Positions 15,599 to 24,831 of a stretch of 29,044 nucleotides of DNA are shown piece after piece; positions within the stretch are counted from its first letter, which is position 1, and each line of letters starts with the position of its first letter. This stretch comes from a virus: positions 1 through 29,044 of IMG/VR virus record IMGVR_UViG_3300020186_000187; one strand, written 5' to 3'. The position numbers and the translations under genes are program-made. The notes beneath the pieces are model-generated. The model ran no database searches. It was not told the DNA's origin and saw only the letters and a program-made list of their open reading frames with translations.

Positions 15599-16276
15599 AT
15601 GGGATTCTTGAAGAGCGTCGGCAACTTCCTCGACCCGAACGCTCCGGCGCGCGAGGCGAACAAGCAAGAGGGCAAGACCCTCAAGGAGCTCCTTGCGCTG
15701 TTCGACGCGCAGGGCACGCAGAACAACCTGGCCTTTGGCAAGGCCGAGTCAAACGTGCGGGCGCAGCTACCGCTGGTGCGGAAGGCGTTTGGAGACGCGA
15801 ACGCCAACCTCGCGCTGACCGCGGACCGGCAGCGGCGCACGGTGCTCGCGCGCGAAGCTCCCGCAATGGCTGGCGCGAACGCGCAGGTATTCCGCGCTGG
15901 CGGCGGCGCGAGCAACTTGGGATCGCTCGTGTCGCGCGGCGTGCGCGGAGACACGACGCGCGCGATGCAGTCGCTCGACGACCTGTTCCAGCAGCACTTC
16001 TCGCAGAACGCGATCGGCCAAGCGCAGGGTCTCGGTTCGGTCTACGACCAACTCGGCAACCTCCAGGTCGGCAAGGCGCAAGCGGGAATGGGCATCACGC
16101 AGGGCAAGGCCGCCGCAATCAGCGGCAAGCAGCACTTTCAGTCTGGCGGCTTGGGCTCGTGGCTCGAGCTCGCCGGCAAGGCCGCGAAGGCGTACACGTC
16201 GTTTGCCTCGGGCAAGGCCCCGGGCGCGGGCGCGGGCCCGGGCGCGGGCGGGACCGGCGCGGCAGGTGTCGGGTAG
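15599..16276 (+). CDS. Internal virion protein (small ejection protein)
   Basis: This is a 225-aa helical, Ala/Gln/Gly-rich protein beginning with a short amphipathic segment (MGFLKSVGNFLD). Long helices follow (residues 20-150). The C-terminus is a Gly/Ala tract (GAGAGPGAG) over GC-rich DNA at 16219-16265. Size, composition and position ahead of two larger internal-type proteins match T7 gp14-like ejection proteins, which enter the host envelope at infection. A GAGG lies 7 nt before the ATG. The Gly/Ala tail may be disordered. Confidence 0.6.
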   Translation: MGFLKSVGNFLDPNAPAREANKQEGKTLKELLALFDAQGTQNNLAFGKAESNVRAQLPLVRKAFGDANANLALTADRQRRTVLAREAPAMAGANAQVFRAGGGASNLGSLVSRGVRGDTTRAMQSLDDLFQQHFSQNAIGQAQGLGSVYDQLGNLQVGKAQAGMGITQGKAAAISGKQHFQSGGLGSWLELAGKAAKAYTSFASGKAPGAGAGPGAGGTGAAGVG

Positions 16277-16303: not shown

Positions 16304-18154
16304 ATGCGTTTCAGCACCAACAGGCACCCCAACTACGAATCTGGCTTCGACCAGTATTCGCGCGGATTCGACGCGCTCGCGGAAGCGGGCGACAAGATCG
16401 AGGAGCGGCGCAGGTCGCGTCACGACGAGAAGCAGGGCGACGAGAAGCACGGCAAGAATCTCGAAATGATGGCTCTGCGGATCGCGGACCTCGAAGACGA
16501 GCTGAAGAACCGGCCGGCTGATCGTGCGCGCATTATCGAGAAGGACAAAGCAGATATTGTCGATCGCGACCTTCGCCGCCAGGCCGACAAAGACGATCGC
16601 GACATTCGCAATCGGGCAATCGACCTCGCGGCGGCGGCGGCGAACCGCAAGACTGCGGACGACGACCGCGCGCGTGCGGCTCGCGCTGCGGCGATTGGGG
16701 CTCTCGGCGGTGGAGGTGGCTTGGTCGCCGACGCGCCTCCAGCTTCTCCGTCGAATGCGGGGATGCAAGGTCCGGTGTTGCCGGGCCAACCTGCTCCGTG
16801 GGACGACAACCCGGATGTGGGCGACCACATGTCCGACACGGATCGGATGTTCGGCGCGATCGCGCCGTTCGCGGCGGACATGGACGAGGACACGTTCCAG
16901 ACGCTCGTCGCGCCGCTGATGAAGGCTCGCTCGAACGGCCTTCTCAGGATCCGCCGACAACAAATGTCGTCGAATCTCGCGAAGGCCGTTGAGGCTGGAT
17001 ACCTCGACGACGCCGGCGCGGCGGATGGGGCAGCACTTCTGGAGTCTGGCGACGCCGTGGCTATCGACAAGTTCGACAAGTCCCTGATGGCGCTGAAGGA
17101 CGCGCACGAGGAGAAGATGACCGACGACATGCTGAAGCAGTCGTCGGTTGGGCGCGTGGAGGGGCTCCTGGCGAGCCTGCCCGCGATTGGCGTGAACCTG
17201 GACCGTTCAAAGCGAGCGCAGATCGAGGCGATGCGCGTCAAGCTCGCGAGCCCGTTCACGTCAGCGGACGATGCAGACCGGCTGGAGGACAAGATCCGCG
17301 ACTTGGTTTTCAAAGACGCCGCGGGCGGGTCCGGTGGCGGGAAGGCTTGGCACGAGCATCCTGCGGTGCTGAAGAAGCTGGAGTTCGGCACGCCGGAGGA
17401 GGCTGCGGCGCTTGCTCGGCAGCTCGGGCTTGAAGGCGTGCCGAACGAAGCGGCCCCGCAGGGCGGTGCTCCGGCTAGCGAGCCGCTCGATCCAGAGGAC
17501 GTGAAATCCGTTGTGGGCCTGCGCGCGGAACTCGAAGACCAGCTCGGCCGTGAGCCCTCGGACGAGGAAGTGGCGGACGAGATCATGCGTCAGTTGGGCG
17601 GATCTGGCTCGCAGCCCGTGTCCGCCGATGCGCCGTCGGCCGCGGACGTCGAGAAGGCGCGCGCAACCCTGCGCGACAAGTACGGCATGGAGCCCACGCC
17701 TGAAGAGGTCAACGCGAAGGTCGTTTCGGACAACCGCGCCAAGGAAAAGCGTCAGCCCTGGAAGCATTACCCTGGCCGAACAACGGGAATCGAGGTGGGC
17801 GATCGCACGCGCGAGTTCCTGAAGAGCGTCATCGGGAAGATGCCTAAAACGCAGGCCGAGAAGGACGCGGGGCTTGCTCATTTCGAGAAGCTGCTCGACG
17901 AGACGGAATCGCCGGGGTATCGCGAGAAGCTCCAGGTCGCGCGCTATGCGCTCACGCAGATCAAGGTGTCGGGCGCGCAAGATGAGTTCGTGAAGAACGA
18001 GCCCGGCAAGTTCAGCGAGGAGGACGCGCGAAAGCAGCACCGTGCTGACGACCGGCTCGTCTTCAAGAAGAACCCGCGCGGCGGATACGACCTCGTGGGG
18101 AAGAACGACCTGCTGCGTCACTCCGACCCGAAGGGCTCCCAGATCAACCAATGA
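16304..18154 (+). CDS. Internal virion protein 2-like, coiled coil
   Basis: This is a 616-aa protein. AGGA (16291-16294) is 9 nt before the ATG. Residues 25-130 form a very charged Arg/Asp/Glu/Lys coiled coil, then an Ala/Gly/Pro linker (130-165). A helical body follows with many short charged helices. Two copies of a sigma-factor-like phrase occur: LGREPSDEEVADEI (about residues 411-425) and YGMEPTPEEVNAKV (about 456-470). The role is inferred from context (T7 gp15-like position): it would be ejected with DNA or coat the portal interior. The stop overlaps the giant gene (ATGA). Confidence 0.6.
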   Translation: MRFSTNRHPNYESGFDQYSRGFDALAEAGDKIEERRRSRHDEKQGDEKHGKNLEMMALRIADLEDELKNRPADRARIIEKDKADIVDRDLRRQADKDDRDIRNRAIDLAAAAANRKTADDDRARAARAAAIGALGGGGGLVADAPPASPSNAGMQGPVLPGQPAPWDDNPDVGDHMSDTDRMFGAIAPFAADMDEDTFQTLVAPLMKARSNGLLRIRRQQMSSNLAKAVEAGYLDDAGAADGAALLESGDAVAIDKFDKSLMALKDAHEEKMTDDMLKQSSVGRVEGLLASLPAIGVNLDRSKRAQIEAMRVKLASPFTSADDADRLEDKIRDLVFKDAAGGSGGGKAWHEHPAVLKKLEFGTPEEAAALARQLGLEGVPNEAAPQGGAPASEPLDPEDVKSVVGLRAELEDQLGREPSDEEVADEIMRQLGGSGSQPVSADAPSAADVEKARATLRDKYGMEPTPEEVNAKVVSDNRAKEKRQPWKHYPGRTTGIEVGDRTREFLKSVIGKMPKTQAEKDAGLAHFEKLLDETESPGYREKLQVARYALTQIKVSGAQDEFVKNEPGKFSEEDARKQHRADDRLVFKKNPRGGYDLVGKNDLLRHSDPKGSQINQ

Positions 18155-21100
18155 CGCAGGGGATCACGCGAGAGGATGCGCTGGCGTTGGCGCGCGCGTC
18201 GCGGGGCACGGGCGAGCAAGCGCCCGACCCTGCGCGTGCGCGCGCGCTTGCCTTGGCGCGGGCTGCGCGCGAGTACCCCGAGCCCGGCTTTGGCGACTAC
18301 CTCGCGGAGTTCGGGGCGAGCGCCGTCGAGTCGGTCGCGGGCACTCTGCGGGGCTTTGGCTCGATCGCGGACGCGATGCGTCGGAACGTCCCCGGCATAG
18401 ACGCGCTGGACGTTCAGATCGGGGAAGGCGAGGAGAGCGTGTTCAGCACCGCCGGCGAGGCGGTGGGCGAGCTTGCGCCGGAGACGCACCCCGGCGCGCA
18501 ATACACGTTCCCCGGTCAGGTGGCTGGCGTGGCCGGCGGCGTCGGGGGCTTCCTCGCACAGGCGGCGCTGATCCCTGGCGGCGCTGTGGCGAAGACGCTG
18601 GGCGCGGGCGTGGGCATGTCGGCCAGCTCGTTCGAGCAGGGGCAGCAGCGGGCGCTTGCGGAGGGCGCGTCTCAGGACGACGCGGACATCGCGGGGCTCG
18701 CGACGATGCCTGCGGGCGCGATCCAGGCGCTTCCGATCGGCAGGGCTGCGGCGCGGATCGTAGGCCCGCTGGCGAACGCGGTATCCAAGAGCATCCTGGG
18801 CGGCGCGGCTGCGAACGCGGCCGAGTTCGTGGGCGTGAACGCGGTTGGCAAGGGCTGGTCGGAGTACGTCGCGCAGGAGATCCGGGACGAAGCCGAGGCG
18901 AAAGAGGTCTGGGACGCGGCGTTCTCGGGCACGCTACCGGAGGTCGTCGTCGGATTCATGCTGGGCGGGGCGGCGACGTGGCGAGCGAACAAGCGCGGCG
19001 CGCGTCTCTCGGAGCAAGCCCTGGCCGAAGTGGAGGCTGCGGGGGTCGAGGTTGCGAGGAATCTGGCTGCGAGGCGGGACGCTGCGGGCGACGCTGCGGA
19101 TGGCGCTGCGGATGGTGGGGACGAGTTCGTGGCTCGTCCGCCGCCCGGCTCCGATCCTGACAGATCTGGCGATGGCGACCCGGACGCGCCGGATGCGCTC
19201 GGGCCGATCGAGCTAGGCCCGGACGGCCCGGACGGTGCAGGCGGTGCCCAGATGACGCGCATCGAGGCGCCCGACGACGCGACCGCAGCGGTCGTCGAGC
19301 GGTTCTCGAGGTCGATCAAGTGGAAGACGCCGCTGGAGATCCACGAGGCACCGGTGCGCCTGCGCGAGCGAGCCGCGCGAGTCGGCATGAAGCTCGTCGG
19401 GGTCAAGGGCGAGGAGCCGCTCCCCGGCGAGGGGTACTACGACCGCGAGACCGGGACGGCGATTATCGACCTCGGTGGCGAGGGCGGTCCGAAGCGGATG
19501 GAGGATGTGCTGCGGCACGAGATCAACCACCACGCCGAGAAGACGCGGCCCGAGCTGGCGAAGGCGTGGGCCGACGCGCTGGACGAGATCGCGCCCGGCT
19601 GGACGGAGCACGCAGCCAAGGCGCGCTCGAAGGCGCAGAAGCTCGCCAAGCTCCCCGGCTTGTCGAAGGAGGGCGCGGAAGAGGAAGGGCGCTCCGAGGC
19701 GGCGGAGGGGCTAGGAACGATCCTGGACGTGCTGGACGCCCAACCGGACCTCGTGGCCCAGGTCGCGGCGCACAAGCCAGGGATGCTTCGCACGCTCGCT
19801 GACTTCCTGATCGACTTCGCGAACAAGATCCGGGGGTCGAAGGACAAGTCCATCAGCGCCAAGGTGCGCGAGCTTCAGGCGGTGCTCGAGCTTCACGGGT
19901 CCGACATCGAGAAGTCCGTCGGCGCGGAGGGCGCGTCGCGGCTTGCGCTCAAGCTCCGCGATCTCCACGCGGCGCTGGCTGTCGAGGAGTCGGTCGAGCA
20001 GCCGCGCGCGAACAAGAAGGCCAACGAGTTCCTGGCGCCGATAGAGAGCGCCGAGGTGCAGGGGCCGCAACCGAAGGCGACGAAGCGCGCCGGGCTCCGC
20101 GCGGGAATGCCGGCGCACGACATCGTGGGCGCGCTGTCCGACATCAGCCGGAGGATTGAGGACGCGCTGCTGGCGGGCGAGTCGCTGGACGCGCCGCGCC
20201 TCCGCGAGCTGCGAAAAGACCGCACGACGGCCGAGGGGCTGCTCTACGAGGCCGACCCGACGCACGCCGCTCTATCGCGTGAGGATCCGGTCGCGATCTG
20301 GAAGCGCATCGTCGCCGAGGACGAGACGGCGACGACCGAGAGGCGGAAGCAGGCCGAGAAGCGCGGGGTCGCTATCGGCCGCGCGCACGAGGCTTTCGAG
20401 GCGGACGTGAAGCGCAACACCGACAAGCGGCAGCGCGAAAAGATGGGGCAGGAGGTCGCGTACGAGCGCGCCTTCCAGAAGATGCTCGCGGAGGAGGAGC
20501 AGGCTGCCACGAAGCGCGCCGACGACGAGCGCGCCGACGACGCTAAGGCGCGCAAGGGCGAGCTGAAGGCGCTGCGTGATGACATCCGCTCGCGCGTCAA
20601 GCCGGAACCGAAGGCCAAGAAGGCGACGAAGGCCAAGGCCCAGGTGGCTGCGGACACGAAGAGGCAGGACGTCCTCGCGGCGCACTATGCGCGGATCGCC
20701 GAGCGGAAAGCGGAGGAGGCCGCGAATCCCAGAGAGCCCGAGCCCGTCGCGCCCGAGCCCGAGAAGAAAAAGCTGCCCGTTCGGTGGAAGCGCGAGAAGC
20801 TCGACGACCCGCGACTGAAGGACGAGGTGGTTCGCGATGAGCTGGGCGCGATGATCCACGGTGCCAAATGGATGATTGTAGGCGGCACGAAGGATATGCC
20901 GGGTGGGAATCGCGACTCGGACAAGCACTACATCAGACACAAGTGGACCGCCGAACAGGATTGGGTGCGGATGCGCGCCAACGCTGGATTCAAGTTCAAC
21001 CTGGAGGAGACGAAGCGGATCATCAAAGATGCGCTCGCCGACCGCGTGCTCACCGCGAATGAGCGCCTGTACGCCACCTGGCTGATCGACACGGCGCACG

Positions 21101-24100
21101 AGAGCGCGTTTCGTGGCGCGGACACGCCGGAAGACATGGCGAGGGCGCGCGAGTTCTACCTCGATGAGAAGATCAGGCGGGGAGAGCGCCCGATCGGGGA
21201 GAACGAGTCGCTGCCCGATGCGGGGGCGCAGGAGGACGTGCCGTTCGCGCTCCCAATCAAGACCCGCGAGGCGGCGGCGCACCAAGCGGAGCTAGAAGCG
21301 CCGCAAGGGCGGCTGGGACGGCTGGGACGGCTGGGACGGCAAGGGCGGCTGGAGCGGTTCCTGGAGCCCATTCGCGCCGGCGCCGAGCGCAACGCCGTGC
21401 GCCGGCTGATCTGGGCCGAAGGGAACAGCGACCAAGCATTCCCGGTGTCCGTGGAAGGAGCAAAGACGAACCTGGTGGTATATGGCTTCCCCCTCCGCCC
21501 ACCGGGGCTTCTTTCGGAAAGAATGGTTCGGTTGCAGTCCCTGGCCCGGCTCTTCATCGAGCAGGAGCTCAACTTGGACACAGAAACGAAGCAACGGGAA
21601 TGGGACTCGCTGGAGCCTTTCGAGTTCCAGCCGAGCGCGCGCAGGGACGCCTACGAGGCGGAGCTCCGCGAGCGGAACGGCTGGATGGAGACCTTCCAGG
21701 GGGCGCTTCGCGACGGGGAGACCGACGCAGCAGCGGCACGTCTCGCCGCGGCGGCGCACCCGGAGGCGCTGAAGCCGTCGAGGTTCCTGGCCGGGTTCGA
21801 CGATCCCGCGTTCGATGGGCCGGCGTTCGCGTTGCCCCTGCGGCGCAGGGAGCAAACAGACACTCCCGAGTTCAAGGCGTGGTTCAAGGGCTCGAAGGTA
21901 GCGGACGAGCATGGGAATCCACTGGTGATGTATCACGGGACGGGGAGTGCCTCGTTCAACGAGTTTGACTCAACCAAGAGTGAGAGATTCGGGTGGGGGT
22001 TGGGTTTCCATTTCGCATCTAACCCTGACCAAGCGAGCAGTTACGCTGGTCAATGGGACGGTCTCAAGGATAGTAGTGTCCGCGTTATCCCCGCCTACCT
22101 GAACATCAAAAATCCGCTAGACGGGGAAGAGTATCACCGTATTCAAGAAGAGGTTGGGGAATCCATGCCCGTTGGGGTCCCCCGCCATCCAAGGATAGTC
22201 GCGGTACGGACGCGGGATCGGCTGATGTCAGAGGGATACGACGGGGTTCGTTATTGGCAAAACGATCAATGGCTTTGGACGGCCTTCTCCAGTAACCAGA
22301 TCAAGTCCGCGACCGGCAACGTCGGCGCGTTCGGTCAACGTGCGCCTACGGCGCAAGAGGCGTCCCAACTCGGCATGACCGAGGAGCGGGCGCTTGCAGC
22401 GCAGGGACGAGGGGACATTCGGTTCGCGTTGCCCGGCGGCAAGGGCCGCGACGGGTCAGGTCTGCGCGAGTTCCTGGCCCGCTACGAGGGCGGCGACCCG
22501 CACTACGCCGTCACGTCGAAGGGCAAGCTCACGATCGCGGCACGCGAGGCTTCCGAGCAGTTCTGGGAGAAGGAGACGATCTCGAAGACCCAGACCGCGC
22601 GCGGCGCTCGCGAGATGCTCGCCACGAAGGCGGGCAAGACCGAGGTCGATGCGGCGATTCGGGGTCAGCACCCTGGCGACTGGCGCGAGCAGAGCACGCT
22701 CACCGTCGCGGCGGAGATGCGCGTGAACAACCTTCTGCGCGCCGCAGCGCAGGGCACGACCAACGCGCGCGCGGCCATCGGGCTCGCCGTGGACTACTTC
22801 ATGCTTCGCAGCGAGCAGGGGCGCGCTCTATCGGCCGTTCAGCGCCCGCGCACGCCGCGCGAGTCGTTCTGGCAGGAGATGAGCGAGCCGACGCCCGACA
22901 ACGCCAAGGCGCTCAAGAAGCTCCAGAACCAGCTCAGAGTCACGAGCACGCCCGAGGCGAAGGCGAAGATTCGTGAGCGCATCGAAGAGATCAAGGCCGA
23001 CGAGGCGCGGCTGTTCGACAAGGGGATGCTCGCGCTCAGGAAGGCAGGCATCGACCCCGAGACGATGGCCGACACGCCCGCGCAGGCGGCGCACGCGTTC
23101 CGCGTCGCGAACATCGCGAAGAGCAAGGGGTTCTGGGACTGGCTGCTCGAGCTGCGCGCGTCGGGCCTCGTGTCGTCGCCGGCCACGACGGTCGGCGCGC
23201 TGGGCGGCAACGTGCTCAACGTCGGCTGGAACACGGTGCTGGCTCGCATTGCGGAGCTTCCTGTCCCCGGCGGAGCGACGGCGGGCGAGATCCGCGCGAT
23301 CACCGCGGCGCTCCCCGGCGCGTGGAACAAGGGCCTGCGCGCGTTCTGGAACGTGGTGACGACCGACGCACCGACGTACGAGGCGCAGCTCAAGCAGCTC
23401 GGGCTCATCGACCAGGCGCAGAACTTCGAGAACGCCAAGCTCGCTTCGATCCCCGGCATTCCCGGCCGGCTCGTGCGCGGCATCGGCCTCACGCCCATGA
23501 CTGCGGTGGACGAGTTTGCGCGCGCGATGGGCTCGGAGCTGGAAGCCGTCGCCATCGCGCATCGTCGATCCGGCGGAGATCCGGCGCAGATGCGCCGCCT
23601 GCTCGGATCCACCGAGGTCTGGTCGGAGGCCGTAAAGAATACGCGCCGCAACATCTTCCAGGAGACCGACGAGAACGCGCTCGTCACGACGGGCTTCAAG
23701 GTGCGTGAGGCACTCGACCATCTCGGCGGGAACACGGTGCCTGTCGGGCACCTCATCTTCCCGTTCGTGCGGACCGGCGTGAACGGCGTGCTCGAGGCCC
23801 TCCGCAAGCTCCCCGGCCCCGCGCAGATCGTCGCGGCGAAGCACATCATCAAGGGCGAGTGGAAGGGCGATCCCGAGCTGCGCGCGCGTGACGTGTCGGC
23901 GCAGATCCTCTCCGTCGTCGTCGGCACGACGCTCTGGCAGCTCGCCAACATGGAGGACGAGAAGGGCCGTCCGTACATCACCGGCAGTCAGCCGGGAACG
24001 CGCGCGCAGAAGTCAGACGCGTGGAAGACCGCGCCGCCAATGAGCTACCGGGTCGGGGATCAATGGCGCAGCTATCGCAAGTGGATGCCGTTCGCGCTGA

Positions 24101-24831
24101 TGACCGCGGCGGTCCTCGACGCGGCGCAGGACGGCGTTGACCCGATGAGCGTGGTGCTGTCGCTTGGCGCGCAGGCTGTTGACGCGACGTACCTCTCGAC
24201 GCTCTCTTCGCTGCTCGATGCCGTGCAGAGCGAGGCCCCCACGAGCGACAAGATCGCCCAGGTGGGCGACGACTTCGCGCGCTCGTTCATCCCGAACCTC
24301 GTGCGCTCGGGCCTCGCCGCGAAGAAGGACGAGGTTACGATCGACCCGCTGCGCGCCAAGGGCGGCAAGGAACTCGGTTGGACCGACCGCGCGCGCGCAT
24401 ACACGGGCACCCTGGAGTCCGAGCAGCAGTACGACAACTGGGGCCGTCCGATGGAGAAGGGCGGCAATGTCATGGAGCGGTGGCTCTCGCCTTCGCCCCC
24501 GAACCGCCGGATCGCGTGGCACGCGGCAGATCAGACGATCGCCGCGTGGAACGACAACCTGCCCGAGGGCGAGAGCCCGTGGGTCCCGTCGAAGGCTCAA
24601 TACTGGTACACCGTGCGCGGCGTCACGAAGTACATGAGCCCGAAGCAGAGCAGCGCGTTCCAGCGGCGCGCCGGCGAACTCGCGGCGGGCATGTTGGACG
24701 AGTCCACGCTCGACCCGAAGAACCCCACACGCGCGCAGATCGACCGGATCAAGAAGGCGCTGTCGCGTGCGCGGAGCCGCGCGAGGCGCGAAGTCCTCAA
24801 CGAAATCCCAGACGAAGAAGAAGACGGATGA
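18151..24831 (+). CDS. Giant polyvalent-type ejection protein (zincin and ART)
   Basis: This is a 2226-aa protein, probably packaged and injected, like T7 gp16 in position but with a different domain set. Residues 1-290 are Gly/Ala-rich with hydrophobic stretches at about 122-160, possibly membrane-interacting. Residues 380-500 form a zincin-like peptidase with H456-E457-x2-H460-H461. Residues 500-900 are charged helices. FALP motifs sit at F1032, F1226 and F1425. An RLG tandem repeat lies at 1054-1070. An ADP-ribosyltransferase-like domain at about 1236-1400 has YH1262GT, GFH1287F, Y1298 and NQ1383IKSATGN. From 1435 to 2226 it is helical, with the IFPFVRTGVN and ITGSQPG pattern of large polyvalent-protein-associated domains. 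The domain calls rest on motifs; boundaries are approximate. No transglycosylase motif is seen. Confidence 0.85.
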   Translation: MTQGITREDALALARASRGTGEQAPDPARARALALARAAREYPEPGFGDYLAEFGASAVESVAGTLRGFGSIADAMRRNVPGIDALDVQIGEGEESVFSTAGEAVGELAPETHPGAQYTFPGQVAGVAGGVGGFLAQAALIPGGAVAKTLGAGVGMSASSFEQGQQRALAEGASQDDADIAGLATMPAGAIQALPIGRAAARIVGPLANAVSKSILGGAAANAAEFVGVNAVGKGWSEYVAQEIRDEAEAKEVWDAAFSGTLPEVVVGFMLGGAATWRANKRGARLSEQALAEVEAAGVEVARNLAARRDAAGDAADGAADGGDEFVARPPPGSDPDRSGDGDPDAPDALGPIELGPDGPDGAGGAQMTRIEAPDDATAAVVERFSRSIKWKTPLEIHEAPVRLRERAARVGMKLVGVKGEEPLPGEGYYDRETGTAIIDLGGEGGPKRMEDVLRHEINHHAEKTRPELAKAWADALDEIAPGWTEHAAKARSKAQKLAKLPGLSKEGAEEEGRSEAAEGLGTILDVLDAQPDLVAQVAAHKPGMLRTLADFLIDFANKIRGSKDKSISAKVRELQAVLELHGSDIEKSVGAEGASRLALKLRDLHAALAVEESVEQPRANKKANEFLAPIESAEVQGPQPKATKRAGLRAGMPAHDIVGALSDISRRIEDALLAGESLDAPRLRELRKDRTTAEGLLYEADPTHAALSREDPVAIWKRIVAEDETATTERRKQAEKRGVAIGRAHEAFEADVKRNTDKRQREKMGQEVAYERAFQKMLAEEEQAATKRADDERADDAKARKGELKALRDDIRSRVKPEPKAKKATKAKAQVAADTKRQDVLAAHYARIAERKAEEAANPREPEPVAPEPEKKKLPVRWKREKLDDPRLKDEVVRDELGAMIHGAKWMIVGGTKDMPGGNRDSDKHYIRHKWTAEQDWVRMRANAGFKFNLEETKRIIKDALADRVLTANERLYATWLIDTAHESAFRGADTPEDMARAREFYLDEKIRRGERPIGENESLPDAGAQEDVPFALPIKTREAAAHQAELEAPQGRLGRLGRLGRQGRLERFLEPIRAGAERNAVRRLIWAEGNSDQAFPVSVEGAKTNLVVYGFPLRPPGLLSERMVRLQSLARLFIEQELNLDTETKQREWDSLEPFEFQPSARRDAYEAELRERNGWMETFQGALRDGETDAAAARLAAAAHPEALKPSRFLAGFDDPAFDGPAFALPLRRREQTDTPEFKAWFKGSKVADEHGNPLVMYHGTGSASFNEFDSTKSERFGWGLGFHFASNPDQASSYAGQWDGLKDSSVRVIPAYLNIKNPLDGEEYHRIQEEVGESMPVGVPRHPRIVAVRTRDRLMSEGYDGVRYWQNDQWLWTAFSSNQIKSATGNVGAFGQRAPTAQEASQLGMTEERALAAQGRGDIRFALPGGKGRDGSGLREFLARYEGGDPHYAVTSKGKLTIAAREASEQFWEKETISKTQTARGAREMLATKAGKTEVDAAIRGQHPGDWREQSTLTVAAEMRVNNLLRAAAQGTTNARAAIGLAVDYFMLRSEQGRALSAVQRPRTPRESFWQEMSEPTPDNAKALKKLQNQLRVTSTPEAKAKIRERIEEIKADEARLFDKGMLALRKAGIDPETMADTPAQAAHAFRVANIAKSKGFWDWLLELRASGLVSSPATTVGALGGNVLNVGWNTVLARIAELPVPGGATAGEIRAITAALPGAWNKGLRAFWNVVTTDAPTYEAQLKQLGLIDQAQNFENAKLASIPGIPGRLVRGIGLTPMTAVDEFARAMGSELEAVAIAHRRSGGDPAQMRRLLGSTEVWSEAVKNTRRNIFQETDENALVTTGFKVREALDHLGGNTVPVGHLIFPFVRTGVNGVLEALRKLPGPAQIVAAKHIIKGEWKGDPELRARDVSAQILSVVVGTTLWQLANMEDEKGRPYITGSQPGTRAQKSDAWKTAPPMSYRVGDQWRSYRKWMPFALMTAAVLDAAQDGVDPMSVVLSLGAQAVDATYLSTLSSLLDAVQSEAPTSDKIAQVGDDFARSFIPNLVRSGLAAKKDEVTIDPLRAKGGKELGWTDRARAYTGTLESEQQYDNWGRPMEKGGNVMERWLSPSPPNRRIAWHAADQTIAAWNDNLPEGESPWVPSKAQYWYTVRGVTKYMSPKQSSAFQRRAGELAAGMLDESTLDPKNPTRAQIDRIKKALSRARSRARREVLNEIPDEEEDG
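21311..21355 (+). repeat. 9-bp tandem repeat encoding RLG
   Basis: The unit GGCTGGGAC occurs three times perfectly (21311-21319, 21320-21328, 21329-21337). It is followed by two degenerate units (21338-21346 and 21347-21355). It encodes an Arg-Leu-Gly-rich linker at residues 1054-1070 of the giant protein, just after the first FALP motif. Copy number is likely to vary by slippage. Confidence 0.85.

Follow-up and report, generated by a model that had tools for sequence, protein, structure and literature searches.

The viral contig analysed here encodes a 2226-aa protein that is probably a modular ejection protein, whose constant C-terminal trunk (PHROG 6651 type) is preceded by a conserved zincin-like domain and by an ADP-ribosyltransferase (ART) domain; the sister phage, L001, lacks the latter. 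The window, meaning the whole stretch of DNA analysed, comprises 29,044 nucleotides (positions 1 to 29,044 of IMG/VR record IMGVR_UViG_3300020186_000187). The gene forms a single intact frame on the plus strand (18151-24831) with an ATG start; a terminase lies upstream of it, and the ORF order resembles a podovirus late operon. A preliminary description based on the sequence had placed a zincin-like and an ART-like motif together in this 2226-aa frame, and both are there, HEINHH at residues 456-461 and YHGT at residues 1261-1264. These two had been located correctly, whereas the QIKSATGN motif spans residues 1383-1390 and thus ends at 1390 rather than 1388. The features are listed in Table 1.

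Table 1. Positions of the features discussed, in window coordinates.
Feature	Residues	Position (nt)	Strand	Basis or remark
225-aa ORF, possible gp14-like first ejection protein		15599..16276	+	position and size only
616-aa upstream ORF, gp15-like by position		16304..18154	+	segment 17598-17967 replaced in L001
Putative modular ejection protein gene, 2226 aa		18151..24831	+	ORF and C-terminal homology
Zincin-like domain	381-560	19291..19830	+	AF2, PDB matches IrrE/PprI, alignment with L030 and other phage proteins
HEINHH zinc-binding motif	456-461	19516..19533	+	sequence motif
FALP joint 1	1032-1035	21244..21255	+	sequence
In-frame cassette, 612 bp	1221-1424	21811..22422	+	lowest GC of any 612-nt stretch in the gene; missing from L001
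FALP joint 2, flanks ART module on its 5' side	1226-1229	21826..21837	+	
ART-PolyVal domain	1236-1394	21856..22332	+	PF18760
ART residue	H1262	21934-21936	+	
ART residue (usual Y position)	H1287	22009-22011	+	
ART residue	D1364	22240-22242	+	
FALP joint 3, flanks ART module on its 3' side	1425-1428	22423..22434	+	
C-terminal ejection trunk	1584-2226	22900..24828	+	PHROG 6651 internal virion protein match

The C-terminal trunk resembles internal virion proteins

Over its last 640 residues, the protein matches gene products annotated as internal virion proteins in NATL2A-133 (7e-10), P60, Syn5, MEP301 and CRP-804. The trunk fragment also matches the PHROG 6651 internal virion protein profile (3.3e-9), as do all 17 trunk members; this profile was listed for the fragment and unlisted in a scan of the full 2226-aa protein. 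Searches with a trunk profile built from a three-sequence alignment identified 68 loci in IMG/VR and 18 in bacterial assemblies, many of the latter sphingomonad or other alphaproteobacterial, a hint at the possible hosts. The preliminary description had taken the protein for the largest internal virion protein at the position of a podovirus ejection protein. Since the trunk matches internal virion proteins, that reading rests on more than position, and the homology supports the prediction that the 2226-aa protein is the largest internal virion, or ejection, protein of an uncultured short-tailed phage.

The cyanopodovirus internal virion proteins (Syn5 gp45, P60 gp34 and that of NATL2A-133) have a homologous C-terminal trunk and a like position among the virion genes. 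Unlike the 2226-aa protein, however, the matched cyanophage proteins (about 1170-1640 aa) contain neither an ART match nor an HExxH motif. Like T7 gp16, the protein is the largest of an apparent three-gene ejection set. Unlike T7 gp16, it has no match to a transglycosylase family and no detectable match to the solved gp16 structures: the trunk profile found no sequence match among the T7 gp16 chains in the PDB, and PDB sequence searches with the ART, zincin and trunk profiles returned nothing significant. No polymerase family matched the 2226-aa protein when it was tested for an RNA polymerase module of the N4-like vRNAP kind. Swapping of enzymatic domains is already known in the ejection-protein class (PMC8954989).

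The ART-PolyVal domain

The ART domain proposed in the preliminary description is borne out by the PF18760 family model, which matches residues 1236-1394 over its full profile (1-140) with an E-value of 7.4e-24 and a score of 85.5 bits (family cut-off, 31.2 bits). At the level of the family, this profile-based assignment is certain. When ART domains of phages and of IMG/VR contigs were aligned, histidine occupied the strand-1 position of H1262 in 147 of 153 domains, and aspartate the strand-5 position of D1364 in 139 of 141. ART-PolyVal has been described as H-Y-D, with the tyrosine in strand 2 (PMC5512222). This tyrosine is missing from the window ART, where H1287 is found instead. As the strand-2 position varies within the family (Y in 73, F in 32, W in 22 and H in 15 of ~152 aligned domains), H1287 does not exclude membership of PF18760, and its occurrence in 15 members suggests a sub-type rather than random decay. 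Because histidine stands in place of the usual tyrosine, the activity of the domain is uncertain.

A probable zincin fold around HEINHH

An HExxH motif is expected in ~4% of proteins of this composition, so HEINHH taken alone is suggestive. The composition-based expectation in the 2226-aa protein was 0.039 for HExxH and 0.0006 for HExxHH, and the motifs appeared in 179 and 3 of 5000 shuffles, respectively. The region matched no Pfam or NCBIfam peptidase model. The profile check proposed in the preliminary description thus recovered ART-PolyVal and failed to recover MPTase-PolyVal or LPD families, PF18760 being the only family above cut-off in the 2226-aa protein. MPTase-PolyVal and LPD families are common among polyvalent proteins and absent from some members.

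A first AF2 model of the region, from two sequences, had a pLDDT of 51 and gave meaningless Foldseek matches. With seven aligned sequences, residues 381-560 were modelled with a pLDDT of 79.5 and a pTM of 0.74. In this model strands precede the HExxH helix, and conserved glutamates lie in a further helix downstream. Aligning zincin and ART fragments together put the zincins in the wrong place, and that alignment was left out of the folding. The best Foldseek matches in the PDB were IrrE/PprI zincins (prob 0.96, 0.90 and 0.75), with ZMPSTE24 and a mini-zincin among the lower ones, although these matches were weak (E-value of 0.013 and up, TM about 0.33) and none was significant by E-value. The fold check anticipated in the preliminary description yielded a zincin-like topology, despite the weak PDB matches. 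A matching region with HEVGHH is found in L030, a protein with the same trunk and 27% identity (pairwise E-value of 4e-5). The motif and the downstream glutamates are kept in L030 and partly in other phages. Between the window and L001, residues 361-560 differ by four synonymous and no non-synonymous codons.

These results bear on the alternative that HEINHH sits in a helical scaffold and has no catalytic role, as the missing peptidase family match and the poor first model might indicate. Considering that the model from the larger alignment is a confident one of zincin-like topology whose best PDB matches are zincins, that the motif and glutamates are conserved beyond the sister phage, and that the region is under purifying selection, we regard this alternative as improbable. 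The zincin of the preliminary description is thus backed by fold prediction and conservation but not by any peptidase family model, and residues 381-560 probably adopt a zincin fold. The closest solved folds are, with weak similarity, the IrrE/PprI and ImmA-like zincins; those are host regulators, whereas the domain described here lies in a putative virion protein.

The only closer relative of this zincin in IMG/VR is that of L001, and none was found in phage records. Comparison by hhalign with the other zincins of the trunk family gave no support for joining them. One recurrent zincin type, ADASTxIHExGHxWLEEL, was observed in trunk proteins L039, L040, L043, L064, L065, L085, L088 and L096; it matches no Pfam zincin family.

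An ART cassette missing from a near-identical phage

L001 is a 44-kb contig with 98-99% identity over the whole window. Its homologue has 2023 aa, as exactly 612 bp, comprising the ART and its surroundings, are cleanly missing in frame, and no ART was found elsewhere in the 44-kb record. The composition of the cassette is foreign: it is AT-richer than the gene, with a GC3 of 0.67 versus 0.88 in the remainder. Compared between the two phages, the predicted zincin is retained and the predicted ART is optional. The existence of an ART-less sister phage suggests that such effector domains can be exchanged as cassettes while the delivery trunk stays constant.

The sole other large difference between the window and L001 lies at 17598-17967, in the adjacent gp15-like ORF, where L001 carries unrelated sequence (616 aa in the window versus 695 aa in L001) while the remainder of the gene is nearly identical. 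Both large differences fall in adjacent genes that probably encode ejection proteins. Residues 407-426 of the same ORF (16304-18154) gave a 20-aa match to Sigma70_r3 (E-value of 3e-6), and a second, similar stretch lies nearby (LRDKYGMEPTPEEV); the match may be due to chance in a helical protein. In the 2226-aa protein, the module just before the ART (residues 1031-1221, 21241-21813) shows 12 non-synonymous and no synonymous differences from L001, a pattern possibly reflecting diversifying selection or a recombination tract.

Other trunk proteins carry different modules

ART domains were found on the trunk proteins of the window, L030, L037, L043, L096 and L153. Other modules on the trunk include ddrB-ParB (L037), Zeta (L083) and SNF2 with a RelA_SpoT region (L039), as well as a GNAT-like match in L096 and HExxH zincins in some proteins. 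The pairs L042/L062 and L072/L073 have similar ends and different middle parts.

The window ART could alternatively be a recently acquired, inactive or decaying passenger, in which case the protein would simply be an ejection protein. This would agree with the replacement of the strand-2 tyrosine by histidine and with the presence of the domain in just one of two near-identical genomes, the other phage living without it. Conversely, the ART is open, in frame and full-length, it retains the H and D residues, its strand-2 histidine is shared with other family members, and independent ARTs occur in other trunk proteins, in L030 at a collinear position. We therefore consider a passenger unlikely and favour a modular protein with an optional effector. 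Vertical descent of the window and L030 ARTs was also considered and rejected, as the two were not paired in a poorly resolved tree.

Repeated joints between the modules

None of 5000 shuffles contained three FALP copies, as the 2226-aa protein does. In L030, YALPR/LALPR occurs three times; two of these copies flank the ART, and different synonymous codons are used. Joint spelling is kept despite synonymous codon changes, as in the FALP at residue 1032 and in the two LALPR copies of L030. In a test on 81 non-redundant ART proteins, with joints defined by a regular expression, a protein's own joint recurred just upstream of the ART in 14 of 94 cases, compared with 94 of 7520 when the joints were taken from other proteins (Fisher p 4e-11); relatedness in this set was reduced with some remaining, and the motif test was chosen after the motif had been noticed in the window. 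FALP is not enriched across the trunk proteins and was therefore rejected as a motif common to the family as a whole. The protein-specific spelling suggests that joints may be places where the protein is processed or where modules are inserted.

The joints also speak to the possibility that the window is an assembly chimera to which the ART was joined artificially. The lower GC of the cassette, and the fact that a single record of this phage has the ART, could be read in this way, but the reading frame is kept at both junctions, each of which lies at a FALP joint, and in L030 the modules follow the same order, with the ART flanked by ALP joints at either end. A chimera is thus very improbable.

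The zincin, in turn, could mainly be the processing protease of its own polyprotein, cutting at the FALP joints and freeing the modules rather than attacking the host. Such a processing role of these zincins was proposed by Iyer et al. (2017; PMC5512222), and it would fit three joints parting the modules, a spelling conserved through synonymous changes and the recurrence of a protein's own joint upstream of the ART. On the other hand, FALP is unenriched over the trunk family, zincin and joints sometimes occur apart, and the N4 vRNAP is packaged uncut (PMC5512222). We see this as quite possible, if on balance not favoured. Should the joints be true processing sites, they would tell how giant ejected proteins split into active parts.

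Relation to polyvalent proteins

Virion-delivered polyvalent proteins that fuse a zincin and an ART were predicted by Iyer et al. in 2017 (PMC5512222; see also PMC9503650), and the vRNAP of Roseovarius Plymouth podovirus 1 is a podovirus example with MPTase and ART (PMC5512222). The combination is therefore less unusual than the preliminary description had assumed. Two marks of polyvalent proteins were found here: several effector-type domains in one polypeptide (the ART and the predicted zincin) and a location near virion or late genes (the terminase upstream and the internal virion trunk). Like the published proteins (PMC5512222), this is a large multidomain protein with a predicted zincin and an ART-PolyVal domain among late genes. 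It differs from them in its PHROG 6651 trunk and in the presence or absence of the ART between near-identical phages, and from the Roseovarius phage vRNAP in having no polymerase family match and no LPD domain. T4 Alt, a head-packaged ART injected with the DNA, is a functional analogy only (PMC5512222): it belongs to a different ART clade (R-S-E) and is a separate protein, unlike the window ART. Beyond papers on polyvalent proteins and on ejection proteins, our search yielded no literature on an ejection-protein effector system. In the literature searched we found no description of the with/without pair, of such varied effectors on the trunk or of the repeated joints, all of which appear to be new.

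In the modular ejection protein that we propose, the constant PHROG 6651-type trunk would do the virion and DNA-ejection job, and the effector modules would precede it, set apart by the repeated FALP joints. The protein would be packaged and then ejected with the DNA. The zincin may either cut host proteins or trim its own polypeptide, for which the FALP joints would be possible sites, and the ART may modify a host protein early in infection. Host transcription and defence proteins had been put forward in the preliminary description as possible targets of such effectors. More tentatively, proteins with this trunk might form a polymorphic delivery system, in which ART, ParB-like, Zeta kinase-like, GNAT, helicase and zincin cassettes are inserted and exchanged at short, protein-specific joints that also serve processing, so that near-identical phages would differ mainly in their injected cargo. 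Since 2017, the ART domains of polyvalent proteins have been predicted to act on proteins of the host; phages with 98-99% identity that differ by the ART cassette and a neighbouring segment offer a natural with/without pair for the effect of such an effector.

ART matches were also observed in other large phage proteins. Giant proteins of Limnohabitans phage DC33 (L022:7045-16422), Podoviridae sp. ctQRb9 (L023:6949-16578) and Caulobacter phage SR18 (L018:5327-11335) contain LPD22 and ART-PolyVal, with the ART missing from their annotation. A protein of the crAss-like ctcc615 (L014:1993-9591), annotated as RNAP-associated/zincin, likewise matches the ART close to its C-terminal end. L016, L163 and others carry several ART-PolyVal domains per protein, with linkers of the (F)DPxxPDIR[FY]S type.
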